Shown here in pieces: positions 36,301 to 61,619 of a stretch of 64,000 nucleotides of DNA. Position numbers and translations under genes: made by a program. A model generated the notes under the pieces. That model saw only the letters and a list, made by a program, of their open reading frames with translations, was not told the origin of the DNA and made no database searches. The stretch comes from Medicago truncatula (taxonomy: Eukaryota > Streptophyta > Magnoliopsida > Fabales > Fabaceae): assembly GCF_003473485.1 (NCBI RefSeq), contig NC_053044.1:384501-448500 (forward strand), given 5' to 3'. Positions within the stretch are counted from its first letter, which is position 1, and every line of letters begins with the position of its first letter.

Positions 36301-39011
36301 TTGAGCAGAATAGCACGTAACCTTGTTTGATGCTGAAAAGGGTATAAAAAGAAATAAAGAAAAATATATATAATTAACAAAAACGTTTGAGTTTCTCTAC
36401 GCTCCACCCATAAAGTTGCGTGAGGGTGAAGATCATGCACTGTGGTGAGGAAAATGAAAACTGGCTGAGAGAGAAACACAGACAGAAGCCTTTACATGTT
36501 ATGCATAGTACATTCACGGTAAGAGTTTCTATGTGGCAAAACATATTATCTGACGGAATAAACTAACACTGCCAGAGACTTCATATAATAACTATAAACA
36601 CCTCTAAACATTTCAAAATGCATCATAGTTTATGTTTATATAGCTAATATAATGTATAATGTATACCATTGATGAAAAGCACCATAGTGATTTTCTTGGC
36701 AGCATAGTTAGCATTAGACACATAACCATGCATCTCAAAAATTGAAGAAGACGGATCATTGTCCGAAGCTTGGACTTCAATCAGATTGTGAGCAGCTGAG
36801 ACCCCATAAACTGTTCTGATGGCATCAAGCCTTGAAGACGTGGCCACGGTGTGAACATCTGCTTTAACAGCTCCATGCTGATAGTAACAGTAAAGTCCGA
36901 AATCAATTAAAATTAATTAACATATATAACTCACAACGCATGCCTCTATAATAATGTAGCGATAAATAAGCTTAATTTTATCGTTCAAGTTAAAAAAACC
37001 AACCTTTCTGCAAGAGAAACTGACATTGGTATGATGTATTGCAAACCGACTGACAACATCCACTATCTTTGAGTAATCATCTGAAGAATTTTGTAGTGTC
37101 TTCTTCCTTGCAGCCATATTATAGAATAGATTCTCAACCTGACAGCAGGCAGGCACAATAATCTCAATCAATTACATGCAAACATTTGATTCCAATTGGG
37201 TGAATCACTAATCTAGTCCTTGAAATTGTAAGAGTCAAGCAATTTAGTCTCTGAAATTAATGTCATTTCAAAATGATCCTTAAAATTAAAAATTTCAGTC
37301 ACATTATCAGGAACCAAATTGACAAATCTAAAAAGACTAGTAATATTGAGATTTGTTAATTTCAAGAACCATATTGCATGTCACCTACAATTTCAGAGAT
37401 TGAATTAATCAAAATAAAACATCCTAATAATAACCTTCAATGTCTTCATTATATAGACCATTAATTAAAATCAAACTTTAATGACAATATAGTATAAAGA
37501 TAACCTATAGCATACCATTATCTGTGTTCCTTTTACAGCAGCACAGGGCCTAGGTTCCTGCTCCATGACACCATCTCTATAGGATACCCTAAACAGTCAT
37601 AAACAAAATTAATATAAAAAATCAATACTCAATATCATCAGTCCTACACATTATGACATAGGGCATATTTAGATTGACTTATTTTAGTTTAGGCCTGTTT
37701 GGGTTGACCTATTTGAGTTTATCAACTAACATAAGTTTTGCAAGACTGTTTGGGAGAACGTATGAAAACAGCTTATGACATTGTTCATAAGCTGTTTTCA
37801 GCTTAATTTCACAAGTTCTTCAAGATAGATTATAAAAACAGCTTATAACTTATACGAAAACAATTTAAATTTAATTATCTTTTTCTATAGAAATAGCTTA
37901 TACATAAGCCCTTATCATGATAAGCACTTGTGCTATGAGCTGCAAATAAGTTGTTTGTTCAAACAAGACCTTTATCTATTAACATAAGTACTTGTGAGAA
38001 GATTTACGAGAGCTTATGGAAACCAGCGTTGTCAAATAGAAGTTATAGCGGCGCTATAGCTTACCAGAATTCGAACAAACTGGAATTGTTCTGCCATATG
38101 CTAATTAGTACAAAGTTTTGTCAAATAGCGGCGGCATAGCACTAAAGCATAGCGGAAATCAAGGAAACTGCTACTTTCCGCTATGGAAACATCTTAGGAT
38201 ATGTCCATAACAGCTTACTTACATAAGCTCTTCATTTTAGTTTATGAACACAGCTTAAAACTTGCATGAAATCTGTTTGATTTCATTTTATCTTCTGTTA
38301 TGATACATAAGCATGTGGTTGGGTAGCTCAACTAATTTGAGCTAACAGTTAAATGAGTTAAAGGATCCAAATTCAAACCCAGCTAAAGTTGAAATATATC
38401 AACCTAACAATTAATTGCAAAAATTGGCAAAAATCTCATACATAAGCTTAAATAATTTGTTCATGTCCAAACAATGTTTAATTCTTATTATATGATCAAA
38501 TAACTATGAAGCCCCTGACACAAACACCGGACATCGAAAATGGATTATTTAAACTTGAATGTGTCGGTGTCGGACACTAACACAGATTTCATGGTGCTAC
38601 AGAAGTTGAATTTCCAGAGAGAAAGAAACCTAACCTGTAACCATGCAATTGGCCTTTAGTAATAGTAGTAACCGTAACATGCGCAACATAAGTCATACTA
38701 GCAAGCGCTTCACCTCTAAACCCCATAGACGTAATCCTCTGCAAATCCTCAAACGCAGACAACTTCGAAGTCGTATGCCGCTCACACAAAATCGGAAGAT
38801 CTTCGCGTCGAATACCGTGACCGTCATCGGAGACTTGAATCAGTTTCAGACCGCCGTCTTTGATTGTAAGGTTTATGGAAGTGGATGCGGCGTCGAGGCT
38901 GTTTTCGACGAGTTCCTTTACGGCGGAGACTGGACGTTGGATTACCTCGCCGGCGGCGATTCGGTTAACGACCGATTCCGCTAGGCGTTGAATTTTGGGT
39001 GGCGATTCCAT
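27422..39011 (-). CDS. MLH1: DNA mismatch repair protein MLH1
   Basis: MutL homologue that pairs with PMS1 in mismatch repair and with MLH3 in meiotic crossovers. Fifteen exons: 39011-38635, 37588-37516, 37138-37004, 36877-36667, 36170-36022, 35189-35091, 34362-34293, 34197-34062, 33018-32924, 32183-32075, 31856-31691, 30788-30627, 30269-30098, 28836-28676, 27466-27422. All joins are GT-AG and in phase, giving 719 codons and a stop. The GHKL ATPase motifs are intact: ELVENSLDA (Mg/ATP), DDGHGI, and TSKLSAF ... [11 protein letters not shown]. The C-terminal interaction domain includes [18 protein letters not shown] and [14 protein letters not shown]. The last residues are FERC; in the family this terminal cysteine takes part in the partner's endonuclease site. 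Slightly shorter than Arabidopsis MLH1 (737), mainly at the N-terminus. Introns hold several transposon relics, none touching a splice site. Confidence 0.95.
29151..29230 (-). mobile_element. Retroposon (LINE-like) 3' tail in MLH1 intron 13
   Basis: A poly-T run at about 29151-29165 followed by GATAAAATATAAGAAATTTA reads on the minus strand as a 3' end with a poly-A tail. This ending resembles plant LINE tails. The upstream body was not recognised. Confidence 0.4.
29537..29843 (+). mobile_element. Solo Copia-type LTR in MLH1 intron 13
   Basis: 307 bp, begins TGTTAGTAGG and ends AGTATCTATCA (TG...CA), with the perfect 5-bp target repeat GAAGC on both sides (29532-29536, 29844-29848). Size and ends are typical of Ty1/copia LTRs. 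It lies antisense to MLH1. Confidence 0.75.
30879..31213 (+). pseudogene. hAT (TTF-type zinc finger) transposase fragment
   Basis: In one plus frame: DLAFCLPC, an in-frame TAA, then [19 protein letters not shown] ... SSHV and [13 protein letters not shown]. This is the pattern of the TTF-type zinc finger found at the N-terminus of ZMYM-like hAT transposases. It lies inside MLH1 intron 11 in the opposite orientation. No catalytic hAT region or ends were found, so it is only a relic. Confidence 0.65.
33313..33392. repeat. (GA)n microsatellite in an MLH1 intron
   Basis: About 80 bp of GA repeats with some GGGA interruptions in the first half, in the intron between the 136-nt and 95-nt exons. 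Confidence 0.95.
37690..37975. mobile_element. hAT-like MITE in MLH1 intron 1, ends uncertain
   Basis: Starts near GGCCTGTTTGGGTTGACC and ends near GTTCAAACAAGACC, with inner inverted motifs such as AACAGCTTAT/ATAAGCTGTT. The same family occurs inside the Mutator arms at about 40262-40490. No clear target repeat. Confidence 0.45.
38035..38190. repeat. Dispersed GCGGCGCTATAGC-type repeat
   Basis: Motifs ATAGCGGCGCTATAGC, AATAGCGGCGGCATAGC and TAGCGGAAAT/TTCCGCTATG recur within 150 bp. Non-coding and of unknown class; in MLH1 intron 1. Confidence 0.4.
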
Positions 39012-39610
39012 CTTTTACGGTGTTTGTTGGGTTTTGGAGTGACGAGAAATGGAATTTGTTCGCGGGAGTATGAATGTTGTACTGGGCGGGAGAGAGAGAA
39101 GGAATCCATATCAGTATTTTTCCGGGTCCCACCGATTCTAGAAATTAATACATCAAGGTCCGTTTGTTACGGTTTTATTTTAATAAAAAAAAAATCATTT
39201 TTTTTAACAAAATAATCACTTTTTTTAATATTGTATCTGTATCTCACAGATTTTCAAAAAAATAAGAATATGAAAATAGGAGAAAACTTACGTACAATTT
39301 CTTAGGTGCTTTTCGTATGATTTTTAACTAAAAATAAATATTTTTTTGGATATAACAAACTTTGAGAAAATTATAGACTTGAGGAAATCATGGTGAATTT
39401 AGTTAAGAACCATACGGAAAGCATCTAAAGAATTGTACTAAGTTTTCTTCATGAAAATAATCTAAAAACAGCTTCAAATGAGCTGTTATGAGCAGCTTTT
39501 TTTTTTATAGATTATTTTTAGAGGAGAGAGAAATTTGTTACGAGATTTTAACAAAAAAAAAATATGTTTAAAACAAACTAAAATTCCAATCATATCCTTG
39601 TTTTACTATA
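39012..39610. other. MLH1 5' flank and promoter region
   Basis: Includes the 5' untranslated region on the minus strand. No TATA box in a convincing position. GGGCGGGAG is at about 39085 and TTCGCGGGAG at about 39060, possible cell-cycle elements that do not fit the E2F consensus strictly. The rest is AT-rich. Confidence 0.5.
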
Positions 39611-39618
39611 TATACAAA

Positions 39619-39705
39619 CAGTACTGCTATTTAGTACGGACGGTCGCATACGAAATTTCACGGGCGCGTTTAAAATCTTATTTTCCACGCGCTACAGTGT
39701 CTGCA
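39619..39705 (+). repeat. MULE terminal sequence A, left copy
   Basis: CAGTACTGCTATTTAGTACG through CACGGGCGCGTTT to CCACGCGCTACAGTG. It aligns with terminal sequence B at many positions (GCTATTT-GTACGG, CACGGG-GCGT, TTCCACGCGCTACA), so A and B are diverged ends of one family. The inverted copy is at about 56845-56930. Confidence 0.8.
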
Positions 39706-39722
39706 GTTTTTTAAAATAAAAA

Positions 39723-41260
39723 ATGATAAAATCAGTCATCGCAGTTCAGTTTCTCTTTCCTCCGCAGCTTATTTTCCAGCCACCGTTTCTCTTCCTTCCG
39801 CAACCGTTTGGAAATGAAAAGCACATCTACTCCATCATCTATGGCCACCGCGACGGAACTATAGCTTCATATTCGAGTTCTCTTTTCTTCGGGGTAAGTC
39901 ATCTTCTCCTTCTTACCATCTTCTCTGTTTTCTTTCTTTACAGTTTGATATGAGAGATGTAATTATTGATGGTAAATCCACTGGTATGTGTAGATTTATG
40001 TTAGCAGAAATGTTAATTCATTGGTTTGACCAACTACCTAATAACTACCCTTCTAAACGGACTTCCGGTTATAAGCGCTTTTACGCAAAAGCTGTTTCAG
40101 CTGACTCACATAAACCTCTTGTTGATAATAACCAAAATACTCCCTCATCATCATCTTCCAAATTGTCCTTGTTCTTGGTGGTTCAGGCGGTGTTGGTAAC
40201 CATTCATTTATTCTTCTTCCTTCTGTTTCTTTTGTAATTAGTTTGATTTTGAATTTGCTTTAGGCCCGCCCTGTTTGGATAAACAAATTAATTTGCAGCT
40301 TAAATTATAAGTGTTTGTCGTGATAAGTCCTTATGAATAAGCTGTTTTCGTATGAGTAATAAGTTGTTTTCAGAAGTTATCTTCAAGAGCTTATAAAAAA
40401 AAGTTGAAAACATCTTATGAACATGAGCTATTTTCATAAGTTCTCCAAAACAGTCTCAAAAATGTTGAAGGTCAATCCAAACAAGTTCTTAATGTTTCAT
40501 AAATATTTACATATTGTTTAACTAAATAGAAAAAATATAATGATTAGTCACTCTAGATGCATTTACGATCGCGGCCAATTCATAGAGTAGTTGCTGACTT
40601 ATGGGTGTTGTTTATTAAGTTGACTCTATGTTAGATCTGCTATATCAAAAAAAAAAAAAAAAATTAAAAGTAGATCAGTTATACAGTTAGTAGTTACTGG
40701 CTAGCAATCTGTCACAGTTGGTTAGATTTCTGTTACGGTTTGTTTGTTTTGGTTCAACTTTTTTATCTTGTAAATAAGACATGTTTGACTCAATATTCAA
40801 TAATTCCGTTGAGATCAATGACAAATGTTTCGCTCATTTTCTCGCATTGTTTACTTTCATATGGTATTAGAGTCTAGTTACGATCCAAGGACATGTGAGT
40901 TATACTAGCTTATGTGACATAGAGTCAACCTATATTGTTGATGAATAGTATTAACAACCTTGTTGTTGGTAATATGTAATTGTGGAATAAGGAATTCCTT
41001 TGCAATGTTATTTTACGCATTCAGAAAACAACCGTAAAATGTAGAAGTGCATATTAATCCATGCCAATAGTTTTGATTCGGGGAGTTTGTAAATTAATTG
41101 ACTTGACTTAATATTCAGGGCAGCTAGTTGTAGCATCACTGCTTCAGCGGAATATTAAGTTGTGCTTGATACTTAGGGATCTCAAGAAAGTCAAGGCTCT
41201 TATTGTCATTCAGGGGATAGTGATTAAGAAGTTCTTCACCACTTTTGGAGTACAGTATGC
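39723..41260 (+). pseudogene. Captured Rossmann-fold (NAD(P)-binding) gene fragment, left arm
   Basis: A first exon ends at 40195 with the nucleotide-binding loop VLVLGGSGGVG. The intron 40196-41118 has GT-AG borders. The next exon continues in phase as GQLVVASLLQRNIK-LILRD. Joined, the two give the dinucleotide-binding start of an atypical short-chain dehydrogenase (NmrA-like, plastid type), with a Ser-rich transit-like leader before it. A one-base frameshift just before the loop separates it from the leader ORF (39950-40237), and the fragment ends at a stop near 41268. Captured with its intron, hence from DNA. Parent gene not in the window. Confidence 0.65.
40262..40495. mobile_element. hAT-like MITE inside the captured intron
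   Basis: Ends near CCCTGTTTGGATAAAC and GGTCAATCCAAACAAG; inner motifs match the element in MLH1 intron 1. It lies in both arms (complement at about 56050-56280), so it was there before the arms were duplicated. Confidence 0.5.
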
Positions 41261-41382
41261 TTAAGAAGTTCTTCCTTTCTATTACTTTTCAAACTGTTTT
41301 CAGTTTTAAAATGTTATAGTCTAACTATAATATGCAGTACAATTTTAACATGTTGTAAAAATCAAATTATTTTCAATCCCTT

Positions 41383-41409
41383 CCCCCCCCCCCCCCCCCC
41401 CCCCCCCCC
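41383..41409 (+). repeat. Poly-C tract of 27
   Basis: An uninterrupted run of 27 C just before the RNase H-like fragment. The right arm has 27 G at 55137-55163. Confidence 0.9.
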
Positions 41410-41416
41410 GAGATAG

Positions 41417-41948
41417 CCAATGCAGCAAGGGATTTTGTTGTGGAAATTAATGAAGATGTCTCAAAGAAGACGAAGAGTTGGAAGCAAGGCGCACGACAGG
41501 AGTTAATTCAAACTTCTCATGCTCATGTGATTTCTGTTGATGCAGGTTGTTTCTCGGATGGCTATACTGCATCTGGCTGTGTGTTCAATGACTATACAGG
41601 TGTAACTACATTCTCAGCTTGCAAAAAGGAACAAATGACAGTTGAACCTACAATTGCTGAAGCTCTTGGCATCCGCTGGTGTATGCAGCACGCGAAGGAT
41701 CAAAGAATTAAAGAAAAGAAATCATTGTGCAGTCAGATGTGTTGGTTGTAGTGGAATGCATTAGGGCAGATTGTAAAGCTCTTATGAATGCCTTTAGTAA
41801 GGTATCTGTTAACTTTATTGGTAGAGATTTGAATGTTTTAGCGCATAGACTTGTAGGTTATGATATGCAAGTAGGGAACAAGTCTTGGTTTGGATATCCC
41901 CTTCCTTTGAATGATGTTATTGTCTCTTGTAATGCCTCTGTTATATAA
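41417..41948 (+). pseudogene. RNase H-like (RVT_3) fragment, left arm
   Basis: VISVDAGCFSDGYTASGCVFNDYTG-type sequence with EALGIRWCM matches the plant RNase H-like domain (RVT_3) of non-LTR retrotransposon origin. The second half, SDVLVVVECI ... DLNVLAHRLVGYDMQ, is in another frame, so a frameshift near 41725 splits it. Similar broken pieces follow at about 42380-42500 (WVF-RLILMWDALK). Not an active nuclease. The right arm has the same frames at 55105-54597. Confidence 0.75.
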
Positions 41949-43850
41949 CGAAGTTGTTAGAATATCAAACAGAAAGAAAAAAAAAAAAAAAAGAGATTGA
42001 CTAATGCTTTTGACCATCTTGTTTCTATGACCATGTAGACTGTAATTACCATGATCAATCATGCAATTGGAGCATCTGGAGTCGTAACCAAGGAGTGCAA
42101 CTTAGTAAGAAAGAAAGTGATTAATTATCACAATAATTAGAAGTATACCAACTTAGTAAAATATGTTTTGTTCTGCTCTAAATATGTTTTTGGTTACAGG
42201 ATATTGATCATGGTTGGCTTCTGGCACTGAATGAAAGCGTGCAAGCACTGTTGGCCATATCAAACTGAAATATTGTTACTGTGTGAAGGCTTGTAATTAC
42301 ATATATGTATTATTGGACGAGCTGGGACAGATTGGGAAGAGGTAAAAACAAAGGTGGCTTAGGATTTAGAGGCTGTTAGTATAGTGCATTATGCTTCTTC
42401 CTTTGCTGAAGTGTTCAATGCAGCCTGTAGACGGCTTTGGGTGTTTTGAAGGTTAATATTGATGTGGGATGCTTTGAAGGCGGGCACACATGTTGAGGTC
42501 TGATCGTTAGCACCATGACTGTGATGGTGCTTAAATTGGATTGATGAACAGAAACAGTTACAGACTAATCCTGCTATTGTATCTCATGTGATTGTAGAAA
42601 CTAACACAAGTAGTATCCAAGGACAAGCATTTGACTTTTAGGAAAAAGAGAGAAAATAATAATGAGCATTTGGCTTTTAAGAAGTCTGTGTTAAGACTAT
42701 CCATGTAATGTAATATTACTCATGTCTATGTTATGCATGTCAATGAATGAAAAGTGCAGGAACATCAATTTGTGTACTTCAAGTTTTAATATTCTTTAGT
42801 AGTATTTCTTTCAGCATCAATAACATGATATTCCTTCCAAATAAAAATATTATAGTTTGATCGCAAAATAAAGCTAAAAAGTTGAAAGAGCGGTGTCATT
42901 TTTTATAACTGATTAATTCATTCAATAAAGCCTAGCACAAGGAGTGCAAAAGGCTAGAGTTTACAAACAAATCCAAACAAACAAGTCTCCACGCACTGAT
43001 GAAAACAAACACCGGGAGGCACCAAAGGCCGAAACAGGGAAAACAAAAGGCATGTGGCTATACAGCATAACAACAAAAAGCCAATCATCGCCCAAACTGC
43101 AAATCATGCAGACCCTCATACCATGACTGCAGAAAACAAAAAAAAAACTCGTAACAGCAGTGTCTTAATCTTGGCTTTTGATGGCTGGATCATTCAACTT
43201 ATGTCTCTGTGATGATTGTGTTGATCCTTCATATGGTGTCGTTCCTTCAAAAAGAGACAAAGGGATTGGTCTTTTTTGTATTAAAATCTGATTGTATTCC
43301 CACACAATAAAAAACCAATAGATTGCATTTACATACAATAAGAAAACTTCAAACAAATACCTGTAACAGATCTGAACAACACCAAAATGATATTAATTTT
43401 TAAATAAAAATAAAACAACACCAAAATCTATATTTGCACCTTGTTTTCTTCACCAAGATGTTCTTGATTTGGATTGAAGGGAGCTACAGTATTTACACTA
43501 CCATTTTCACCACTCCATACATTGTTCTGCTCCTGCTAAAATATTTACATAGAAAACATGGATTCTTAGTATGCAATGTAATATCAGGTGCATTTTAAAA
43601 TAAAAGTATGGAATCATCTAGAATATGAATTATCAAATAGAAATAGATAGAGCAACGAATCTTATATCTGCACCTGATTTACTTGACTAGAATATTCTTT
43701 GTTTACTTGAATGCTCTCTTGTGTGCCAATTCCATCACCAAGTTGAGATCTGTAACACACTTCATATTCAATTTCTTGACCTCTAGATATGCATGGGCCC
43801 TGCCATAAAAAAATCCTAAATTAGACTTGTCAACTATTATATCTATAATA

Positions 43851-46800
43851 TCAATAAATAAATACTATAAATTTCATACTCACCTCTTCAGGACCTTGAG
43901 TTTTTTTACTATTTTGGTTGTTCTTTTTAGTTTTCTTTTGTGCAAGCTTCTTCTTCACAATCTGATCAAATTTAGATGTCTTCCTTTTCGAAGGAGGACG
44001 CCCTTTACTTCGAGCCAGTTTAGGATCAAGAATGGTAGCTTGGCTTTGAACTGAACAATCTTCTTCTATAATTCTAGGAGATGTTTCATTACATGGTAAC
44101 TCAATTTTCATGTTTTGAATCCAGTTCATCACTTTCACTAAATCATCTTCACTATTTATCCTTGTTGAAGCAAATTCATAAAAGGCGTCACAAGCTTTAT
44201 CAACACGTTGCAATTCAGTTTTTCCAGCCAAATTATCAAAACCACATTTAATAAGTATATACCTCCGCTTTATATCTTTCCTCCACCGTGCCAAAATATA
44301 ATTAGATGGCACGAAATCTGTTTTCCCTATGAGCTTAAGCACACAAAGGATGTGCCTACATAAAATGCCTTTAAATTCAAACAAGTGGCAGGTGCATTTT
44401 AACATGAAGTCTTTTTCATTGAAGAGCACCATGAACACAATATCTTTCATCTTGTCATATACTTTCTTACTTTCTGTAACAGAAAATATTGAATCCAAAT
44501 CCTCCAATCTGTTGAAACATGCATGACAGTACATCATAGAAGCTATTTCCAATTGGAATTCCTGAAACTTTGCATTGGTAAAGGCTTTTTGGAATTGGAA
44601 TTCAAAGCCAAAGTGACTAATACAAGCAATAACCGTATTAAAAGAACGAAAGTCGGCAATGTTTTCCTTTTCAATTTTATCTTTCAATGCATTATCATAC
44701 TGCTCAACAAATTGCTTCAGTGTTGTCTTTGAGGTCACATATCCATCAAAAAATGAGTTCATACTTTCACTTCGTTGTGTAGTTGACATTCCAGCCCAAA
44801 ATGTGTCCCTTACATATGCAGGAACCCAACGATGCCTGTAACGCCCACTTTCGTTTAATCGTTATTTAATTGAGTTTAGGCAATTATATTATAATTATAT
44901 AGTATATGCATAATTTTGTTATGTTTTGGTGATTCACGATGAATTTAGTGATTTGATTGATGACGTGATAAGTTATGAGTTTTGGAGGATTTGATTATGA
45001 TATGAGATTTATTTTATTGTTAAATAGAATAAAGATTTGAAAATAATATAAAATATTTAGTTGAGGGCTGTTTTGATATTTTAGATAGTTTTGGGGGAGA
45101 AAGTGAGATAAGATAAGTTATTAGAAAGAGGTATAAATAGGAGAAGACCTAATATTTTAGAAACTCACTGTACGTGAAAACTTTTGAAAAAGGGAGAAAA
45201 GCTTAGAAGGGAGAAGAGCATAGAGAGGGCTGCGATTTCTTCATAACCAGGTAAGGGTGAGACTAATAACTCAGTATTGTTAATTGAATGTGATTCTGAT
45301 GATTAGTTAACAAGAATTAGGAGTGAATTGGAGAAAACGAAAACTAGGTCAAAACCTTAGAATTGATGATCAAACGGTGAGAATTGGTTTAATTGATGTA
45401 GAAAGTGTTCCTAGACCTTAGATAATGTTTAGGACGAACTTTGGAATAAAAAACAAGCTTAGAACCATGTGAAACGTCGAGTTTTTGTGAATTTAGGAAG
45501 TCTGGCCGTAGCGACATTCATCGCTCGCCTCGCGAACCCTGTTTCCTCGCCTCGCGAGTTATGCAATGCAGCTCGCCATAGCGAGCGACCTTACTCGCCA
45601 TAGCGAGATAAGGCAGAGTGCATGTTAGATTTTGTGTTTCGACCTTTTTAGTTGGACCTTGAATGCCTTAGTGTGCCTGAACATACCTAGTAATGATTAG
45701 GAATGAATGTAGGGCAAGATTAGACGCAGAACAACTTTAGTTTGGGAATTGTTTAGTACTCGCCATGGCGAGCAAGAACCCTCGCCTCGCGAGCACCTCC
45801 AGCCTTGAGTGTTGTGAGTGTTTGTGCGATTTGTGTCGCACGTTTTGATCAAGAGCGAACCCCCTTATGATAATAAGACCTAATGATGACGTTAAATGCA
45901 GTCTGTAAGCTGTTTAAGATATGTTGATATTGATTGAGTATGATTAAGGTATTGTATATTTATGTAAGATATGGAAGTTTAATTATGAAATAATTGATGT
46001 GCTATTGATATAATGATATCATCCTGTTATGTGACTTGATTATGCTGCTGCTGTTATTTAACTAAGTGCATTGTATGTATTTATATATGATGAAATGATG
46101 ACGTTTAGCTCCAAGTTGTTGGATGCATGTTGATATGTTGATTACGATGTTTTGTTCATAAGAGTCCATGCATAGCATCTCATTGAGCTTAGTCCTCACC
46201 ACGTTTATTAGGAGCTTTGTCCTCCGCACGATTATTAGGAGCTTTGTCCTCCGCACGATTAAAGTATATTAATACTTATGATGACGATTGGTACCACATG
46301 CATATAAGGAGTCTAAGAGCATTGTCACATTGTCATGTCCATAATGCTATGTTGTTGATGACGGTTGAATAAGTGAATACGTGATATTGTTGAATATATG
46401 AATACGTGATACTTGTTATTTGAATATGCAAAGTTATCCAAGAATGATTATGATGTTAATGTTAATTATGATTCGAATTACTTTGATTAGCATTATTTTG
46501 TTATGAAATCTCACCCCTTCTGCTTGAAAATGTTGCCCTTCGTATGGGTAATTGCAGGTGATCGTGCTTAGTGTGCAGTTGCTTCTGTGAGTGGCCTTGC
46601 CTCACTATGTCGTCTAGGTCGCTCTGATACGTAACGGGATGGGGTTTATGTTTATGCATGCTTCGTTCTCTTACGTGACTAATATGTTATTTTTATAATG
46701 TTATGGATTATGATTATGAACTTTTGATGGGGCCTGCGTGCCAAAACGTTTTATGAATTATGATTATGATTTTCCGCTGCAATGTTTAAGATATTGGTTA

Positions 46801-48109
46801 AATTATTATTTAACTGTTTTGGATTATGTTTTATGTGATATCCCGTTGTTTATGATGCTTACTCTGATAAATGTTTTTAAGAATTTTTATGTTGGGAAAA
46901 CGGGGTGTTACAATGCCGTTCAACAAATATCCCTTTCAACCATTCATTGTCATGTAGCTTGTAACACTCAATCATATTTTCCCACTTCATCATAAAATCA
47001 CTTTTGCTAAAAGAATCGTATACAATATCATGCAAAAGTGTTTTGATAGACTCGTAGTCAGAGTGTTTACCAAACTTTTCTGGAATCTTTTTCATTAAAT
47101 GCCATAAGCACCACCGATGACGAGCCTTCGGAAAGACAACCTCAATTGCCTTTTTCATTGCTCCGTCTTGATCAGTGATTATGACATTTGGAGAACGTTC
47201 ATGCATACATTCTAACCAAGTCTTAAACAACCAAGTAAAAGTTTCAGTATTCTCATTTGACAACAGAGCACAACCCAGCAACATCGACTGACCATGATGG
47301 TTTACTCCAACAAAAGGAGCAAAAGGCATGTCATATTTATTTGTTAAGTAAGTGGTGTCGAAAGATATGACTTCGCCAAAATATTCATATGCGGCCCTAC
47401 ATCTTGCATCTGCCCAAAACACATTTCGTAACCGACTTTCATCATCGACGTCCATTACATAATAAAATTGACTATTTTGCTTTTGCATCCTAACAAAGTA
47501 TTTTTGTATTGCTTCAGCATCTCCTGTCCCAAGTCGTAATCGTCTTACTTTGTCTATGTGGTTTCTACAGTCTTTTTCTCCAAATGTGAGATTCTCATAC
47601 CCATTTGCTTCACCGACCAAGGATCGAAAATTTCTACTCACATTAATCCCAGCTTGATCATTGAGTTCTAACCTCCTCTTCATTCGAGCCCCAATATTTT
47701 TGTTAGATCTAAAATATCGTGCTTTCCCTGGACTTAGATCATGATTATGCTAAAAAAAAACACTTGAAATTTTAGTTGTTCCGTCTGAATACATACACGC
47801 ATTCAATCTAGCCTTACACTGCATTTTTGTTACAGGATTTGGCTCTAACAAATTCTTTGAGCGACTCACATACTTTCTAGATCGACTGCATGCTAAAGTA
47901 AAATACATTTTCCCTTCATCTCCTTTTTTTGAACTTATTTTTGTAGTTCCAAAACCCACCCGTTGAGCATAATTCCTGTAATACTCATTAATTTCCTTCT
48001 CAGATCCAAATGACATCCCATCACAAGGTGTTTCTTCTTCATAAGTATCATTTGCTTCTAAACAATCATTAGTTTCCAATTCATCACAAGACTCAAATCC
48101 TTCTTGCAC
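43851..48109 (-). pseudogene. FAR1/MULE transposase gene, left copy, split by a solo LTR
   Basis: Read on the minus strand: the FAR1 DNA-binding exon (48109-47750; GMSFGSEKEINEYYRNYAQR, FTLACSRSRKY), then the MULE transposase domain (47683-46913) with FDTTYLTNKYDMPF and ITDQDGAMKKAI. The solo LTR (46912-44837) comes next, then the rest of the gene (44836-43880) with the SWIM zinc finger CTCHLFEFKGILCRHI and a Lys-rich tail. 3' exons appear to continue to about 43430. A TAG at 47752-47750 lies in frame between the FAR1 part and HNHDLSPGK. With the stop and the LTR it cannot make a full transposase. It is the only copy that keeps the 5' end. Confidence 0.85.
44837..46912 (+). mobile_element. 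Solo LTR (2,076 bp) inside the transposase
   Basis: Begins TGTAACGCCC and ends GGGGTGTTACA, with the perfect 5-bp repeat ATGCC on both sides (44832-44836, 46913-46917). A TATA-like GGTATAAATAGGAG is at 45130. A GC-rich block at 45510-45800 has palindromes of the CTCGCCATAGCGAG and CTCGCGAGGCGAG kind. GCACGATTATTAGGAGCTTT is tandemly repeated near 46190-46260. Same family as 52410-54541. Confidence 0.9.
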
Positions 48110-48526
48110 TAATACAACAAATAAAATAAAATAAAAAACCTATATTAATTGACCAAATTCACAGAATACACAAAATACACAAATTTCCTGCTAATGATAT
48201 ATAAAAACAACAAATACACAAAATACTTACTTGTAAGTGAAATGAAATCTGAAATACTCTGCTTTAGGCTATGAATCAATGGAAGCTATGATAGTAAGCA
48301 GAAACAGAGTTATGTGAGGATGAATATGAGATCAAATTCACAGAGGCAAGACGTAAGAATGAGAAAACGACCACGACGCTATTTCGCAACAAATGAGATT
48401 GAACTCCAATCAGAGTATTTGATTCGCGGGAATGAGGAAACAATTCGCAGGAAAGAGTATCTGATTCGCGGGAGTGGAGATCGTGGGTTTCCATTCTTTT
48501 TTTGGCTGAACTGCAGTTTTTTTTTT
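47835..48526 (-). other. Single-copy spacer of the composite: transposase 5' region
   Basis: Holds most of the FAR1 exon, an intron start after TTGTAAGT-like sequence and the untranslated leader of the transposase. It ends at CTGCAG plus a T run, directly joined to terminal sequence B. Three E2F-like motifs (ATTCGCGGGAA, AATTCGCAGGAA, ATTCGCGGGAG) lie at 48421-48475. Confidence 0.65.
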
Positions 48527-48662
48527 GGAAAATGCTATTTTGTACGGAAGTGTTGTGCAAGAATACTCACGGGAGCGTGAAAACTTTCTACTTCCACGCG
48601 CTACACTTTCTCTGTCCAACAAAAATAAGATTAAATTAAATATAAAACCTGCAGTTTGTAAC
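48527..48662 (+). repeat. MULE terminal inverted repeat B, inner copy
   Basis: 136 bp, GGAAAATGCTATTTTGTACG to CTGCAGTTTGTAAC. Its complement is at 56938-57073. The right arm is enclosed exactly between the two, so 48527-57073 has the form of a complete MULE of its own. Confidence 0.9.
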
Positions 48663-48807
48663 AAAAATGCAGTGTAAGGCTAGATTGAATGTGTGTATGT
48701 ATTCAGACGGAACAACTAAAATTTCAAGTGTTTTTTTTTAGCATAATCATGATCTAAGTCCAGGGAAAGCACGATATTTTAGATCTAACAAAAATATTGG
48801 GGCTCGA

Positions 48808-50526
48808 ATGAAGAGGAGGTTAGAACTCAATGATCAAGCTGGGATTAATGCGAGTAGAAATTTTCGATCCTTGGTCGGTGAAGCAAATGGGTATGAGAAT
48901 CTCACATTTGGAGAAAAAGACTGTAGAAACCACATAGACAAAGTAAGACGATTACGACTTGGGACAGGAGATGCTGAAGCAATACAAAAATACTTTGTTA
49001 GGATGCAAAAGCAAAATAGTCAATTTTATTATGTAATGGACGTCGATGATGAAAGTCGGTTACGAAATGTGTTTTGGGCAGATGCAAGATGTAGGGCCGC
49101 ATATGAATATTTTGGCGAAGTCATATCTTTCGACACCACTTACTTAACAAATAAATATGACATGCCTTTTGCTCCTTTTGTTGGAGTAAACCATCATGGT
49201 CAGTCGATGTTGCTGGGTTGTGCTCTGTTGTCAAATGAGAATACTGAAACTTTTACTTGGTTGTTTAAGACTTGGTTAGAATGTATGCATGAACGTTCTC
49301 CAAATGCCATAATCACTGATCAAGACGGAGCAATGAAAAAGGCAATTGAGGTTGTCTTTCCGAAGGCTCGTCATCGGTGGTGCTTATGGCATTTAATGAA
49401 AAAGATTCCAGAAAAGTTTGGTAGACACTCTGACTACGAGTCTATCAAAACACTTTTGCATGATATTGTATACGATTCTTTTAGCAAAAGTGATTTTATG
49501 ATGAAGTGGGAAAATATGATTGAGTGTTACAAGCTACATGACAATGAATGGTTGAAAGGGATATTTGTTGAACGGCATCGTTGGGTTCCTGCATATGTAA
49601 GGGACACATTTTGGGCTGGAATGTCAACTACACAACGAAGTGAAAGTATGAACTCATTTTTTGATGGATATGTGACCTCAAAGACAACACTGAAGCAATT
49701 TGTTGAGCAGTATGATAATGCATTGAAAGATAAAATTGAAAAGGAAAACATTGCCGACTTTCGTTCTTTTAATACGGTTATTGCTTGTATTAGTCACTTT
49801 GGCTTTGAATTCCAATTCCAAAAAGCCTTTACCAATGCAAAGTTTCAGGAATTCCAATTGGAAATAGCTTCTATGATGTACTGTCATGCATGTTTCAACA
49901 GATTGGAGGATTTGGATTCAATATTTTCTGTTACAGAAAGTAAGAAAGTATATGACAAGATGAAAGATATTGTGTTCATGGTGCTCTTCAATGAAAAAGA
50001 CTTCATGTTAAAATGCACCTGCCACTTGTTTGAATTTAAAGGCATTTTATGTAGGCACATCCTTTGTGTGCTTAAGCTCATAGGGAAAACAGATTTCGTG
50101 CCATCTAATTATATTTTGGCACGGTGGAGGAAAGATATAAAGCGGAGGTATATACTTATTAAATGTGGTTTTGATAATTTGGCTGGAAAAACTGAATTGC
50201 AACGTGTTGATAAAGCTTGTGACGCCTTTTATGAATTTGCTTCAACAAGGATAAATAGTGAAGATGATTTAGTGAAAGTGATGAACTGGATTCAAAACAT
50301 GAAAATTGAGTTACCATGTAATGAAACATCTCCTAGAATTATAGAAGAAGATTGTTCAGTTCAAAGCCAAGCTACCATTCTTGATCCTAAACTGGCTCGA
50401 AGTAAAGGGCGTCCTCCTTCGAAAAGGAAGACATCTAAATTTGATCAGATTGTGAAGAAGAAGCTTGCACAAAAGAAAACTAAAAAGAACAACCAAAATA
50501 GTAAAAAAACTCAAGGTCCTGAATAG
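48808..50526 (+). CDS. MULE transposase (FAR1/FRS-like), right copy, N-truncated
   Basis: 572 open codons. The MULE transposase domain (about residues 100-205) has FDTTY (D109) and ITDQDG (D171), with GVNHHGQSMLLGCAL between; a SWIM zinc finger CTCHLFEFKGILCRHI is at 403-418; then a basic tail (KRKTSKFDQIVKKK). The copy begins inside the FAR1 domain, so that domain is lost, and the in-frame TAG at 48739-48741 closes the frame upstream. At its end GAG (left copy) has become TAG, just before a GTGAG donor. Later exons (about 50611-50735 and 50878-50970) would be untranslated. It might make a DNA-cutting domain without its binding domain; activity is doubtful. Confidence 0.75.
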   Translation: MKRRLELNDQAGINASRNFRSLVGEANGYENLTFGEKDCRNHIDKVRRLRLGTGDAEAIQKYFVRMQKQNSQFYYVMDVDDESRLRNVFWADARCRAAYEYFGEVISFDTTYLTNKYDMPFAPFVGVNHHGQSMLLGCALLSNENTETFTWLFKTWLECMHERSPNAIITDQDGAMKKAIEVVFPKARHRWCLWHLMKKIPEKFGRHSDYESIKTLLHDIVYDSFSKSDFMMKWENMIECYKLHDNEWLKGIFVERHRWVPAYVRDTFWAGMSTTQRSESMNSFFDGYVTSKTTLKQFVEQYDNALKDKIEKENIADFRSFNTVIACISHFGFEFQFQKAFTNAKFQEFQLEIASMMYCHACFNRLEDLDSIFSVTESKKVYDKMKDIVFMVLFNEKDFMLKCTCHLFEFKGILCRHILCVLKLIGKTDFVPSNYILARWRKDIKRRYILIKCGFDNLAGKTELQRVDKACDAFYEFASTRINSEDDLVKVMNWIQNMKIELPCNETSPRIIEEDCSVQSQATILDPKLARSKGRPPSKRKTSKFDQIVKKKLAQKKTKKNNQNSKKTQGPE

Positions 50527-52409
50527 GTGAGTATGAAATTTATAGTATTTATTTATTGATATTATAGATATAATAGTTGACAAGTCTAATTTAGGATTTT
50601 TTTATGGCAGGGCCCATGCATATCTAGAGGTCAAGAAATTGAATATGAAGTGTGTTACAGATCTCAACTTGGTGATGGAATTGGCACACAAGAGAGCATT
50701 CAAGTAAACAAAGAATATTCTAGTCAAGTAAATCAGGTGCAGATATAAGATTCGTTGTTCTATCTATTTCTATTTGATAATTCATATTCTAGATGATTCC
50801 ATACTTTTATTTTAAAATGCACCTGATATTACATTGCATACTAAGCATCCATGTTTTCTATGTAAATATTTTAGCAGGAGCAGAACAATGTATGGAGTGG
50901 TGAAAATGGTAGTGTAAATACTGTAGCTCCCTTCAATCCAAATCAAGAACATCTTGGTGAAGAAAACAAGGTGCAAATATAGATTTTGGTGTTGTTTTAT
51001 TTTTATTTAAAAATTAATATCATTTTGGTGTTGTTCAGATCTGTTACAGGTATTTGTTTGAAGTTTTCTTATTGTATGTAAATGCAATCTATTGGTTTTT
51101 TATTGTGTGGGAATACAATCAGATTTTAATACAAAAAAGACCAATCCCTTTGTCTCTTTTTGAAGGAACGACACCATATGAAGGATCAACACAATCATCA
51201 CAGAGACATAAGTTGAATGATCCAGCCATCAAAAGCCAAGATTAAGACACTGCTGTTACGAGTTTTTTTTTTGTTTTCTGCAGTCATGGTATGAGGGTCT
51301 GCATGATTTGCAGTTTGGGCGATGATTGGCTTTTTGTTGTTATGCTGTATAGCCACATGCCTTTTGTTTTCCCTGTTTCGGCCTTTGGTGCCTCCCGGTG
51401 TTTGTTTTCATCAGTGCGTGGAGACTTGTTTGTTTGGATTTGTTTGTAAACTCTAGCCTTTTGCACTCCTTGTGCTAGGCTTTATTGAATGAATTAATCA
51501 GTTATAAAAAATGACACCGCTCTTTCAACTTTTTAGCTTTATTTTGCGATCAAACTATAATATTTTTATTTGGAAGGAATATCATGTTATTGATGCTGAA
51601 AGAAATACTACTAAAGAATATTAAAACTTGAAGTACACAAATTGATGTTCCTGCACTTTTCATTCATTGACATGCATAACATAGACATGAGTAATATTAC
51701 ATTACATGGATAGTCTTAACACAGACTTCTTAAAAGCCAAATGCTCATTATTATTTTCTCTCTTTTTCCTAAAAGTCAAATGCTTGTCCTTGGATACTAC
51801 TTGTGTTAGTTTCTACAATCACATGAGATACAATAGCAGGATTAGTCTGTAACTGTTTCTGTTCATCAATCCAATTTAAGCACCATCACAGTCATGGTGC
51901 TAACGATCAGACCTCAACATGTGTGCCCGCCTTCAAAGCATCCCACATCAATATTAACCTTCAAAACACCCAAAGCCGTCTACAGGCTGCATTGAACACT
52001 TCAGCAAAGGAAGAAGCATAATGCACTATACTAACAGCCTCTAAATCCTAAGCCACCTTTGTTTTTACCTCTTCCCAATCTGTCCCAGCTCGTCCAATAA
52101 TACATATATGTAATTACAAGCCTTCACACAGTAACAATATTTCAGTTTGATATGGCCAACAGTGCTTGCACGCTTTCATTCAGTGCCAGAAGCCAACCAT
52201 GATCAATATCCTGTAACCAAAAACATATTTAGAGCAGAACAAAACATATTTTACTAAGTTGGTATACTTCTAATTATTGTGATAATTAATCACTTTCTTT
52301 CTTACTAAGTTGCACTCCTTGGTTACGACTCCAGATGCTCCAATTGCATGATTGATCATGGTAATTACAGTCTACATGGTCATAGAAACAAGATGGTCAA
52401 AAGCATTAG

Positions 52410-54541
52410 TGTAACACCCCGTTTTCCCAATATACAAATTTCTTAAACAATTATCAGAGTAAAAACCATAAACGGGATATCACATAGAAACGTAATCCAA
52501 AAACAGTTAAATGATAATTTAACCTTCACAAATATCTTTAACATAGCAGCGGAAAATCATAATCATAATTCGTAAAACGATTTGGCACGCAGGCCCAACA
52601 AGTATCTCAAAAGAGTTATCAAAACATAGGCAGTTCACGTAAAAGAATGAAGCATGTTATAGCATATAACCCCATCCCGTTACGTATCAGAGCGACCTAG
52701 ACGACACAGTGAGGCAAGGCCACTCACAGAAGCAACTGCACACTAAGCACGATCACCTGCAAGTTACCCATACGAAGGGCAACATTTTCAAGCAGAAGGG
52801 GTGAGATTTCATAATAAAATAACATTAATCAATGTAATTGCGAATCATAATTTAACATCATAATCATTCCATTATTAACTTTGCATAAATGCTAAACAGT
52901 TATCGCGTAATCATTATCCAATCATTATGAGGAACATAACATAATCAATAAACACTTATCACGTAATCACATATTCAATCATTATCAACAAGGCATCTTA
53001 ATCATGACAATGTGACAATGCTCCTAGACTCCTTATATGCATGTGGTACCAATCGTCATCATAAGTATTAATATACTTTAATCGTGCGGAGGACAAAGCT
53101 CCTATAAAACGTGCGGAGGACAAAGCTCCTAATTTTCGTGGTGAGGACTAAGCTCAATGATATGCTATGCATGGACTCTTAACAACAAAACACGTAATCA
53201 ACGTAATCAACATGCATCCAATAATTTGGAGCTAAACTTTATCATATACTTATGCACTTAGTTAAACAACGGAAGCAGCATAAACAAGTCACATATCAAG
53301 ATGATATTATTATATCAATAGCACATAAATTGCATTATTATCAAACCTTCTCATTTTGCATGAATATACAATACAATAGTTCTTAACCAATTAATATTAA
53401 TATAACTTAAACAACTCTACAGGCTGCATTAAACGTCATCACTAGGTCTCATTACCAGTTAGGGGTTCACTCTTGATCAACAAGTGCGACACAGATCGCA
53501 TAAACACATAAACAAGTTCATCCTGGTTGTACTCGCGAGGCGAGAGTACTTACTCGCCATGGCGAGCACCACTCAACTCACAAACTAAGCTTGTTCTGGG
53601 TTCCCTCTGATCCTACATTCATTCCTAATCAATACTAGGTATGTTCAGGTACTCAAAGGCATACAAGATTCAACTAAAAAGGTCGAAACACGAAATATGA
53701 CATGCACTCTGCCTAAGCTCGCGAGGCGAGGAAGGTTGCTCGCGAGGCGAGGAAGGTTGCTCGCCATGGCGAGTTGCACCAAACAACTCGCGAGGCGAAG
53801 GAAAGGGGCTCGCGTGGCGAGCGATGAAGTTCATCACTCGCGAGGCGAGGATCATCACCCGCCGTGGCGAGCGATGAACAGAAGCACGGGCAGACTAGGG
53901 TTTTTCTCAAAAATCCATCACACAACATGGTTCAAAGCCTAATTTTGATTCCAGAATTCATCCTAAACATATTCTAAGGTTAAAGGACGGTTTCTACATC
54001 AATCTAAACAAGTTTTACCGTTTGATCATCAATTTTTAGGGTTTTAACCTAATTCCAAAACTTTTCTAAATCAATCCTAACTTTGTCAATTAATCATCAG
54101 AATTACAACAATCAATGCTATTGAATTACTAGTCTCACCCTTACCTTGAATGAAGAAAATCGCAGCACTCTACCTTGATTCCTCTAGACTTGGCTTTTCT
54201 CCCTTCTTCCAAAAGTTTTCACGTACAATGAGTTTCTAAAATATTAGGTCTTCTCCTACTTATATCTTTTTCTAATTACTTATCTTATCTCACTTTCTCC
54301 CCCAAAACTATCTAAAATATCAAAACAGCCCTCAACTAAATATTTTATATTATTTTCAAATCTTTATTTTATTTAACAATAAAATAATTCCCATATCATA
54401 ATCAAATCCTTCAATACTCATAACTTAACACGTCATCGATCAAATCATCAAAACATACCAAAATCATGCATATACTATATAATTATAATATAATGGCCTA
54501 AACTCGATTAAATCAACGATTAAACGAAAGTGGGCGTTACA
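52410..54541 (-). mobile_element. Solo LTR (2,132 bp), right arm
   Basis: On the minus strand it begins TGTAACGCCC and ends GGGTGTTACA. The 5-bp repeat ATTAG flanks it (52405-52409, 54542-54546). It interrupts sequence that is continuous in the left arm near 41998-42010. Same family as the LTR at 44837, roughly 90% identical at the ends. The palindrome block at 53535-53880 is longer here, with about eight CTCGCGAGGCGAG / CTCGCCATGGCGAG units. ORFs at 53670-53942 are translations of that block and not genes. Confidence 0.9.
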
Positions 54542-54596
54542 ATTAGTCAATCTCTTTTTTTTTTTTTCCTTTCTGTTTGATATTCTAACAACTTCG

Positions 54597-55105
54597 TTAT
54601 ATAACAGAGGCATTACAAGAGACAATAACATCATTCAAAGGAAGGGGATATCCAAACCAAGACTTGTTCCCTACTTGCATATCATAACCTACAAGTCTAT
54701 GCGCTAAAACATTCAAATCTCTACCAATAAAGTTAACAGATACCTTACTAAAGGCATTCATAAGAGCTTTACAATCTGCCCTAATGCATTCCACTACAAC
54801 CAACACATCTGACTGCACAATGATTTCTTTTCTTTAATTCTTTGATCCTTCGCGTGCTGCATACACCAGCGGATGCCAAGAGCTTCAGCAATTGTAGGTT
54901 CAACTGTCATTTGTTCCTTTTTGCAAGCTGAGAATGTAGTTACACCTGTATAGTCATTGAACACGCAGCCAGATGCAGTATAGCCATCCGAGAAACAACC
55001 TGCATCAACAGAAATCACATGAGCATGAGAAGTTTGAATTAACTCCTGTCGTGCGCCCTGCTTCCAACTCTTCGTCTTCTTTGAGACATCTTCATTAATT
55101 TCCAC
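54597..55105 (-). pseudogene. RNase H-like (RVT_3) fragment, right arm
   Basis: Inverted copy of 41440-41948 with the same frameshift and identical predicted residues in both half-frames (103 and 73 codons). The break therefore came before the arm duplication. Confidence 0.75.
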
Positions 55106-55136
55106 AACAAAATCCCTTGCTGCATTGGCTATCTCA

Positions 55137-55163
55137 GGGGGGGGGGGGGGGGGGGGGGGGGGG
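55137..55163. repeat. Poly-G tract of 27
   Basis: The complement of the 27-C run at 41383-41409, with exactly the same length in the given sequence. Confidence 0.9.
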
Positions 55164-55289
55164 AAGGGATTGAAAATAATTTGATTTTTACAACATGTTA
55201 AAATTGTACTGCATATTATAGTTAGACTATAACATTTTAAAACTGAAAACAGTTTGAAAAGTAATAGAAAGGAAGAACTTCTTAAGCAT

Positions 55290-56822
55290 ACTGTACTCCA
55301 AAAGTGGTGAAGAACTTCTTAATCACTATCCCCTGAATGACAATAAGAGCCTTGACTTTCTTGAGATCCCTAAGTATCAAGCACAACTTAATATTCCGCT
55401 GAAGCAGTGATGCTACAACTAGCTGCCCTGAATATTAAGTCAAGTCAATTAATTTACAAACTCCCCGAATCAAAACTATTGGCATGGATTAATATGCACT
55501 TCTACATTTTACGGTTGTTTTCTGAATGCGTAAAATAACATTGCAAAGGAATTCCTTATTCCACAATTACATATTACCAACAACAAGGTTGTTAATACTA
55601 TTCATCAACAATATAGGTTGACTCTATGTCACATAAGCTAGTATAACTCACATGTCCTTGGATCGTAACTAGACTCTAATACCATATGAAAGTAAACAAT
55701 GCGAGAAAATGAGCGAAACATTTGTCATTGATCTCAACGGAATTATTGAATATTGAGTCAAACATGTCTTATTTACAAGATAAAAAAGTTGAACCAAAAC
55801 AAACAAACCGTAACAGAAATCTAACCAACTGTGACAGATTGCTAGCCAGTAACTACTAACTGTATAACTGATCTACTTTTAATTTTTTTTTTTTTTTTGA
55901 TATAGCAGATCTAACATAGAGTCAACTTAATAAACAAAACCCATAAGTCAGCAACTACTCTATGAATTGGCCGCGATCGTAAATGCATCTAGAGTGACTA
56001 ATCATTATATTTTTTCTATTTAGTTAAACAATATGTAAATATTTATGAAACATTAAGAACTTGTTTGGATTGACCTTCAACATTTTTGAGACTGTTTTGG
56101 AGAACTTATGAAAATAGCTCATGTTCATAAGATGTTTTCAACTTTTTTTTATAAGCTCTTGAAGATAACTTCTGAAAACAACTTATTACTCATACGAAAA
56201 CAGCTTATTCATAAGGACTTATCACGACAAACACTTATAATTTAAGCTGCAAATTAATTTGTTTATCCAAACAGGGCGGGCCTAAAGCAAATTCAAAATC
56301 AAACTAATTACAAAAGAAACAGAAGGAAGAAGAATAAATGAATGGTTACCAACACCGCCTGAACCACCAAGAACAAGGACAATTTGGAAGATGATGATGA
56401 GGGAGTATTTTGGTTATTATCAACAAGAGGTTTATGTGAGTCAGCTGAAACAGCTTTTGCGTAAAAGCGCTTATAACCGGAAGTCCGTTTAGAAGGGTAG
56501 TTATTAGGTAGTTGGTCAAACCAATGAATTAACATTTCTGCTAACATAAATCTACACATACCAGTGGATTTACCATCAATAATTACATCTCCCATATCAA
56601 ACTGTAAAGAAAGAAAACAGAGAAGATGGTAAGAAGGAGAAGATGACTTACCCCGAAGAAAAGAGAACTCGAATATGAAGCTATAGTTCCGTCGCGGTGG
56701 CCAGAGATGATGGAGTAGATGTGCTTTTCATTTCCAAACGGCTGCGGAAGGAAGAGAAACGGTGGCTGGAAAATAAGCTGCGGAGGAAAGAGAAACTGAA
56801 GTGCGATGACTGATTTTATCAT
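55290..56822 (-). pseudogene. Captured Rossmann-fold gene fragment, right arm
   Basis: Inverted copy of the left-arm fragment: leader ORF 56595-56308, donor after 56350, second exon from 55427 downward. Only a few base changes from the left copy (for example MRDV to MGDV, and Y to S in the leader ORF). Same frameshift before the GGSGGVG loop. Confidence 0.65.
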
Positions 56823-56937
56823 TTTTTATTTTAAAAAACTGTAGACACTGTAGCGCGTGGAAAAAAAGATTTTAAACGCGCCCGTGAAATTTCGTATGCG
56901 ACCGTCCGTACTAAATAGCAGTACTGTTTTTTTTTTA

Positions 56938-57073
56938 GTTACAAACTGCAGGTTTTATATTTAATTTAATCTTATTTTTGTTGGACAGAGAAAGTGTAGC
57001 GCGTGGAAGTAGAAAGTTTTCACGCTCCCGTGAGTATTCTTGCACAACACTTCCGTACAAAATAGCATTTTCC
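56938..57073 (-). repeat. MULE terminal inverted repeat B, outer copy
   Basis: Complement of 48527-48662. It forms the right boundary of the composite and is followed directly by TATACAAA, which also precedes the left end at 39619. Confidence 0.9.
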
Positions 57074-57081
57074 TATACAAA

Positions 57082-60328: not shown

Positions 60329-61619
60329 AATTCTTGATTAAGACAATATGTTGGTTTTGGATTGTGATTTCTTTGGGATAGGTTGATGGATAATCTATAC
60401 TATATTTCGATAATCCTAATTTTGGATTGACTTTTTGTTTAAATTGTTTGCTCTATATTTCGCGAGCGCCATATTTATTATAATGGCTTCGACGTCAATA
60501 TCATTTTTTTACACTAAAACACGAAATAAGACAATGACAACATATATCATGTATGATATTAACAATATACCTCTTTCTGATATCAATATGTGGATGGCTT
60601 GACCACCAAACTTAAAATTATGGTTCTTCCATCTTCCTTCAATTCAAGTCCTTAAATAACTCAGCTAAGCTGTTTCGCATACAACAAAAATAAATAAATT
60701 TTCTCTATACACAAAATTTCATTAAACTGTTCCAAATAAACGATATAAAGTTATCTATTCACAACTCCAAAACATTACATTCTTTAATTTCAAAGCCTAA
60801 CTAATCAATTTTATTTATTTATTTTTGATTCAGCAAATATTATTAACTACTAGCAATCATGAGAGATTCTAATAGGACAAAGAAATACTAAAAAAAATTC
60901 AAGAACGCGACCTGGAAAAATTTAATCATGCATACGATCATGTTGGATTTGAACATGTGCTGATGAACATCGTTTGTCTCCTTAAAAAAATATCTAGAAT
61001 ATAAAATAAAAAAGACTAAAATGATGTCAATGCAAACTTGCGGTAATTAAAGGTAGGGTCAATCATAAATGAACCTTGTGGATTATCATACACCAATAGA
61101 CTCAACTGTCATTACCGTTCAAAAAAAATAAAACTCAACGGTCATTTACATGCTAGTAGTTTTCAATTTTTTTGTCTCCTTTGACCTTCTCAAACATCAA
61201 TTTTATGATCAAATTCGAAGAATGGGTCTGCCAAAGCGTAATTTAAAGAAAAAGGTTATTGAATAGAATTGAATTGTTGGTTGTTGGATTTGTTTGAGTA
61301 GAAATGAATTTCTCACAAATCACCTCTTAATGATGTGCAGTTTGTTTTTATAATACGCAATCTTCAAAGGCCAAACCATGAATACACTAACGATTATCTC
61401 AGACATGATTTGCTTGGTTGCAATCTTGACGCATGGAAACCAGAACCCCTAGGTGAAGATTACTTATTTTGTGATGGCCTAGTGGTTGCTCTATTAAAGC
61501 TGCATGCATGACCTTCAAAAAGTATGCCACTTTGATTTAATAGTGGGTTTCCTTGCATTTTACGCAAATGCGCAATTTATGGAACCCCTGAAATCTACCT
61601 AAAGATCTTGCTAATCTCT
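60329..61619. other. Intergenic, nothing recognised
   Basis: AT-rich. No ORF of note, no clear repeat, no RNA gene seen. Confidence 0.5.

Follow-up and report, generated by a model that had tools for sequence, protein, structure and literature searches.

We analyzed a window of 64,000 bp of Medicago truncatula DNA, C3:384501-448500 of a 430-Mb genome in 42 contigs, where positions 39611-57081 form a large palindrome of Mutator-like element (MULE) sequence; relatives were sought within this one genome assembly only. A sequence-only reading of the window had described two inverted arms of about 6.14 kb around a 692-bp single-copy spacer, and self-BLAST and alignment confirmed the arms, while the spacer fits 47835-48526. 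Specifically, 39616-42005 matched 56929-54542 in inverted orientation at 99.4% identity, 42000-44836 matched 52410-49574 at 99.9%, and 46913-47834 matched 49578-48657 at 99.6%. When both solo long terminal repeats (LTRs) were left out of the comparison, the arms, each ~6.14 kb, were 99.48% identical over 6,150 alignment columns, of which 17 are mismatches and 15 contain gaps. As that reading had also stated, TATACAAA stands just outside both ends, flush with them at 39611-39618 and 57074-57081; it is present six times in the whole window, but of 200,000 site pairs drawn at random from the window only 18 had a flush 8-10-bp match. The two outer ends, A on the left and B on the right, had been called different yet related, and this held as well, with a local alignment score of 50, where none of 300 shuffles scored above 29; A and B are, judged by this alignment, diverged versions of one terminal repeat. 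The structure had thus been seen, but a complete inner B end (48527-48663), an A end running up to 56926, and the T-runs flanking 48527-56926 had been overlooked. The layout is that of an outer element, E (39619-48526 plus 56927-57073), split by an inner element, dE (48527-56926):

39611..39618, no strand: left target-site duplication of E, TATACAAA, flush with the end
39619..48526, minus strand: outer element E, first part, from the A end to the T-run, containing a solo LTR; co-linear with the copies on C6 and C1, each of which shows small indels
39619..39702, plus strand: terminal inverted repeat A of E, ~84 bp, resembling B in the local alignment
48518..48526, no strand: probable left T9 target duplication of dE, within the 10-T run 48517-48526
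48527..56926, plus strand: inner element dE, both ends complete, ~0.7 kb deleted, reverse in E
48527..48663, plus strand: end B of dE (inner B)
56843..56926, minus strand: end A of dE, up to the terminal base
56927..56935, no strand: probable right T9 target duplication of dE, within the 10-T run 56927-56936
56927..57073, minus strand: outer element E, last part, the rest of the T-run and end B; identical to the B end of the C6 copy
57074..57081, no strand: right target-site duplication of E, TATACAAA, flush with the end

The genome was searched with both ends, and the resulting copy counts may be lower bounds. The end-B search, in which 17 of 17 candidates were scored, returned 17 matches, four at 96-100% and 13 at 72-80%; the four best were the outer and the inner one in the window, C6:32029744-32029885, and C1:28228094-28228235. 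The end-A search (22 of 22 candidates scored) returned 26 matches, and the four at 98-100% belonged to the same four copies, namely E, dE, C6 and C1. Both copies elsewhere are single-copy A-to-B elements, C6:32022908-32029885 of 6,978 bp and C1:28228094-28235052 of 6,959 bp, which span CAGTACTG at A to CATTTTCC at B and are flanked by perfect 9-bp duplications (TTGTTTTAA and TTTATAAAA). The sequence-only reading had postulated an ancestral element bounded by A and B, and these two copies show that such an element existed. The C6 copy is co-linear with window 39619-48526, the LTR apart, and then passes directly to 56927-57073; the C1 copy is likewise co-linear save for its own indels, which include a ~140-bp gap close to end A and, farther inward, ~110 additional bases. 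This co-linearity indicates that E is a member of a small family, interrupted by 48527-56926.

With the termini set by the C6 and C1 copies, dE was seen to extend from the outermost base of B (GGAAAATG) to the outermost base of A (CAGTACTG), indicating that it is a whole transposon in reverse orientation. Its insertion point is a T-run, 137 bp from the B end of E. There are 10 T on either side of dE, whereas the run is uninterrupted in the relatives, with 11 T in C6 and 12 T in C1; since 10 + 10 − 9 gives 11 T, as in C6, a 9-bp duplication fits. Two marks of a nested insertion are present here: the inner element has its own complete termini, and the host element exists uninterrupted as the C6 and C1 copies.

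The kinship of the four copies was examined from pairwise differences, which amounted to 18 of 6,268 sites for E and dE, 49 of 6,946 for E and C6, and 119 of 6,776 for E and C1. Among columns gap-free in all four copies, 13 sites set E and dE apart from C6 and C1, one united E and C6, none united dE and C6 against E and C1, and one showed a different pattern. The ratio of 13 sites to one indicates that dE is a sister or daughter of E. With the rate of 1.3e-8 per site per year that PMC3903597 applied to LTRs of maize and rice, the 0.29% difference between E and dE would correspond, very roughly, to ~0.1 million years. Note that this figure dates the common ancestor of E and dE and not the palindrome, unless gene conversion acted, because the two are separate copies. 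Arm identity was, for that same reason, rejected as a measure of the age of the palindrome.

Taken together, the palindrome very probably arose by nested insertion, in which the shortened sister copy dE jumped into the MULE E in reverse orientation and so came to mimic one composite element. The complete ends, the T-run arithmetic, the sisterhood and the uninterrupted relatives speak for this directly. In such a course of events, a ~7-kb FAR1-type MULE, E, of a lineage already carrying pieces of foreign sequence, would have inserted here with an 8-bp (perhaps at first 9-bp) duplication. Its sister dE, shortened by ~0.7 kb that had held most of the FAR1 domain, would then have transposed into the T-run of E in opposite orientation, duplicating 9 bp of T at 137 bp from the B end and leaving a near-perfect palindrome. 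Each copy would also have received one LTR retrotransposon, independently of the other, of which only a solo LTR remains. The arrival of E before dE at this site and the timing of the LTR insertions are inferred.

Several observations count against this reading. The duplication at dE is a homopolymer that cannot be read base by base, and the length of the T-run varies between the C6 (11) and C1 (12) copies. The outer duplication of E is 8 bp, as opposed to 9 bp in the C6 and C1 copies; the right flank of E reads TATACAAAA, so one A may be gone from the left duplication. The single site that unites E and C6 is in conflict with the sisterhood of E and dE. Finally, identity along the arms is uneven, with 3 of 2,831 differences in the middle segment and 15 of 3,437 in the rest (p = 0.017, for a split at the LTR sites chosen post hoc), which may reflect gene conversion between the arms, or chance.

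Of the other explanations, the one that survives best is that dE entered E at another locus, after which the composite of both transposed to this site as a single large element and made TATACAAA. Complete outer ends A and B with a duplication would look alike in that case, and rice MULEs with a nested miniature inverted-repeat transposable element (MITE) kept multiplying, to 107 copies, according to PMC3903597. However, such a move needs one extra step, and only C6, the window outer, the window inner, and C1 ends reach 96% (B) and 98% (A). In this genome, end-A, end-B, FAR1-region and A-side searches, whose counts may be lower bounds, found no second copy of the composite. We therefore regard this origin as very unlikely; the macro-transposon inserted as one unit, as proposed in the sequence-only reading, is not needed, since transposition of dE into E suffices. 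That reading had also offered template switching in gap repair as one way in which the element could have gained a partial inverted copy of itself. There is indeed an inverted partial copy inside the element, and repair can delete at microhomology, as in dE; an inverted MULE duplication is also known in Mu killer (PMC3440606). Nevertheless, template switching gives no reason for the inverted segment to be bounded by precisely the outermost bases of B and A, or for the flanking T-runs to have the lengths expected from a 9-bp duplication, and because dE is a complete transposon with exact element termini on both sides, we rejected this route, to which we give almost no credence. An assembly error joining two unlinked copies is just as implausible, for, hard as long near-identical inverted repeats are to assemble, every junction has the form that a real insertion gives, and LTR insertions and 18 substitutions tell the two arms apart.

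The two elements carry the following:

40671..41200, no strand: probable captured piece 1, 88-89% like C8:2.67-2.72 Mb, a candidate source
41404..41981, plus strand: probable captured piece 2, an RNase H-like (RVT_3) fragment, 80-90% like C1:12.248 Mb, a candidate source
43851..47749, minus strand: MULE transposase region of E, broken by the solo LTR
44837..46912, plus strand: solo LTR inside E, duplication ATGCC at 44832-44836 and 46913-46917
47753..48139, minus strand: FAR1 DNA-binding domain of E, nearly all absent from dE
48742..50526, plus strand: open frame of dE with MULE transposase and SWIM domains (Pfam)
52410..54541, minus strand: solo LTR inside dE, duplication ATTAG at 52405-52409 and 54542-54546

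In the Pfam scan, the MULE region was taken from dE and FAR1 from the spacer of E. The dE frame holds MULE, SWIM and related domains (PF10551, 6e-38; PF04434, 5e-6), and the spacer of E holds FAR1 (PF03101, 2e-7), so that the transposase combines the MULE, FAR1 and SWIM parts of a FAR1-type MULE. A MULE target duplication is usually 9 bp; it is 9 bp at C6 and C1 and 8 bp at the outer element, and the T-run of the inner element fits 9 bp. The domains, the 9-bp duplications and the related terminal inverted repeats bear out the earlier assignment to Mutator-like elements. E, dE, C6 and C1 all have a stop codon that separates the FAR1 part from the MULE part (window 47750-47752 in E), pointing either to an unusual gene structure or to an old defect; with this stop in all four copies, the family may no longer have been autonomous. 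The ~0.7 kb missing from dE, which is the single-copy spacer of the sequence-only reading, holds most of the FAR1 domain, and the deletion joins two copies of TGTAAC, as would be expected of microhomology-mediated loss.

That the element carries pieces of other sequences was supported by the A-side matches at C8 and C1; the two pieces of other genes of the sequence-only reading are thus plausible, with genes as candidate sources. The RNase H-like match of captured piece 2 was weak, and frame 39818-40237 had no Pfam family match. In the same A-side arm, window ~40270-40490 matches many genome places at 72-83%, that is, a dispersed repeat inside the element, and self-BLAST gave an 80% match of it to 37736-37862, beside an MLH1-like exon.

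The two solo LTRs have LTR-like ends (TGTAAC...GTTACA) and 5-bp duplications, are 82-84% alike, and sit at different arm positions. They entered E and dE independently, and their positions are uninformative on the origin of the palindrome because E and dE are separate copies. For the first 634 bp of the left LTR, 40 of 3,310 candidate relatives were scored (itself included), all 98-100% identical, and several of these 40 were paired ~6.6 kb apart, as the LTRs of full elements would be.

Beyond the four close copies, the three next relatives of the spacer region are 86-88% identical there. They share the B-side 2.7-2.9 kb of E at 88-91%, plus scattered pieces beyond; no match was found in them at ~4.4-6.9 kb from the B end, except for the A terminus in one of the three, and it is this A-side part of E that holds the two probable captured pieces. 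A relative in the wider family, C7:11150548-11155867, has three B-like ends in 2.3 kb; its 684-bp inverted arms are nearly perfect and recur in tandem units of roughly 826 bp. Equal-scoring FAR1-region matches at C1:45332475, 45338068 and 45343662, with ~5.6-kb spacing, form a tandem array of FAR1-like sequence. A pattern search with TATACAAAG gave 4,165 forward and 4,172 reverse matches, against 6,022 and 5,984 for the reversed control, and was uninformative as a poor query.

Next to the palindrome, window 38589-39014 (minus strand) contains an exon like the start of a gene, with an ATPase domain (Pfam), which we take to be the start of an MLH1-like mismatch-repair gene. As it lies ~600 bp from the A end of E, the insertion sits upstream of this MLH1-like gene. 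Elsewhere in the window, self-BLAST showed a ~1.1-kb inverted repeat on itself at 61618-62725 (77% identity).

In a search of the literature, with most subscription papers outside the searched set, none of the titles listed describes this locus. The nesting of a FAR1-type MULE within a sister of its own family adds an instance to a type of event already known and is in that sense ordinary; nested insertions are described as common in coding MULEs (PMC3903597). A plain nested insertion of this kind can nonetheless pass for one giant, palindromic element, and it takes relatives from the same genome to settle its origin. The layout also recalls Mu killer of maize, a MuDR with two A ends that has an internal deletion and is duplicated in part, and whose silencing PMC3440606 ties to short antisense transcripts unable to form large hairpins. 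In both, a MULE transposase gene is present as an inverted duplication from which hairpin RNA could form, but here two nearly whole elements are nested. By this analogy, leftward transcription from the B end of E would read dE in antisense and then the E transposase in sense, yielding a hairpin with ~6-kb arms, and the reverse self-insertion might be a natural Mu-killer-like silencer whose small interfering RNAs silence the C6 and C1 copies, an idea we consider unlikely. If it were true, a Mu-killer-like locus would arise simply by a transposon landing in its sister, and the locus is a clean candidate for asking whether chance reverse self-insertion creates a silencing locus.

MULEs with multiple terminal inverted repeats likewise have more than two terminal repeats in one duplication-flanked interval; for those with extra terminal repeats, Ferguson and Jiang 2012 (PMC3310237) exclude nested insertion, as there were no internal duplications. 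In contrast, the inner element here has both ends complete and lies in a T-run that fits a 9-bp duplication. With FAR1/Jittery-type coding MULEs, our elements share the MULE, SWIM and FAR1 domains, the 9-bp duplications and the related terminal repeats; they differ in that the nested element is a sister of the same family, reversed, so that a palindrome with 6-kb arms is formed.
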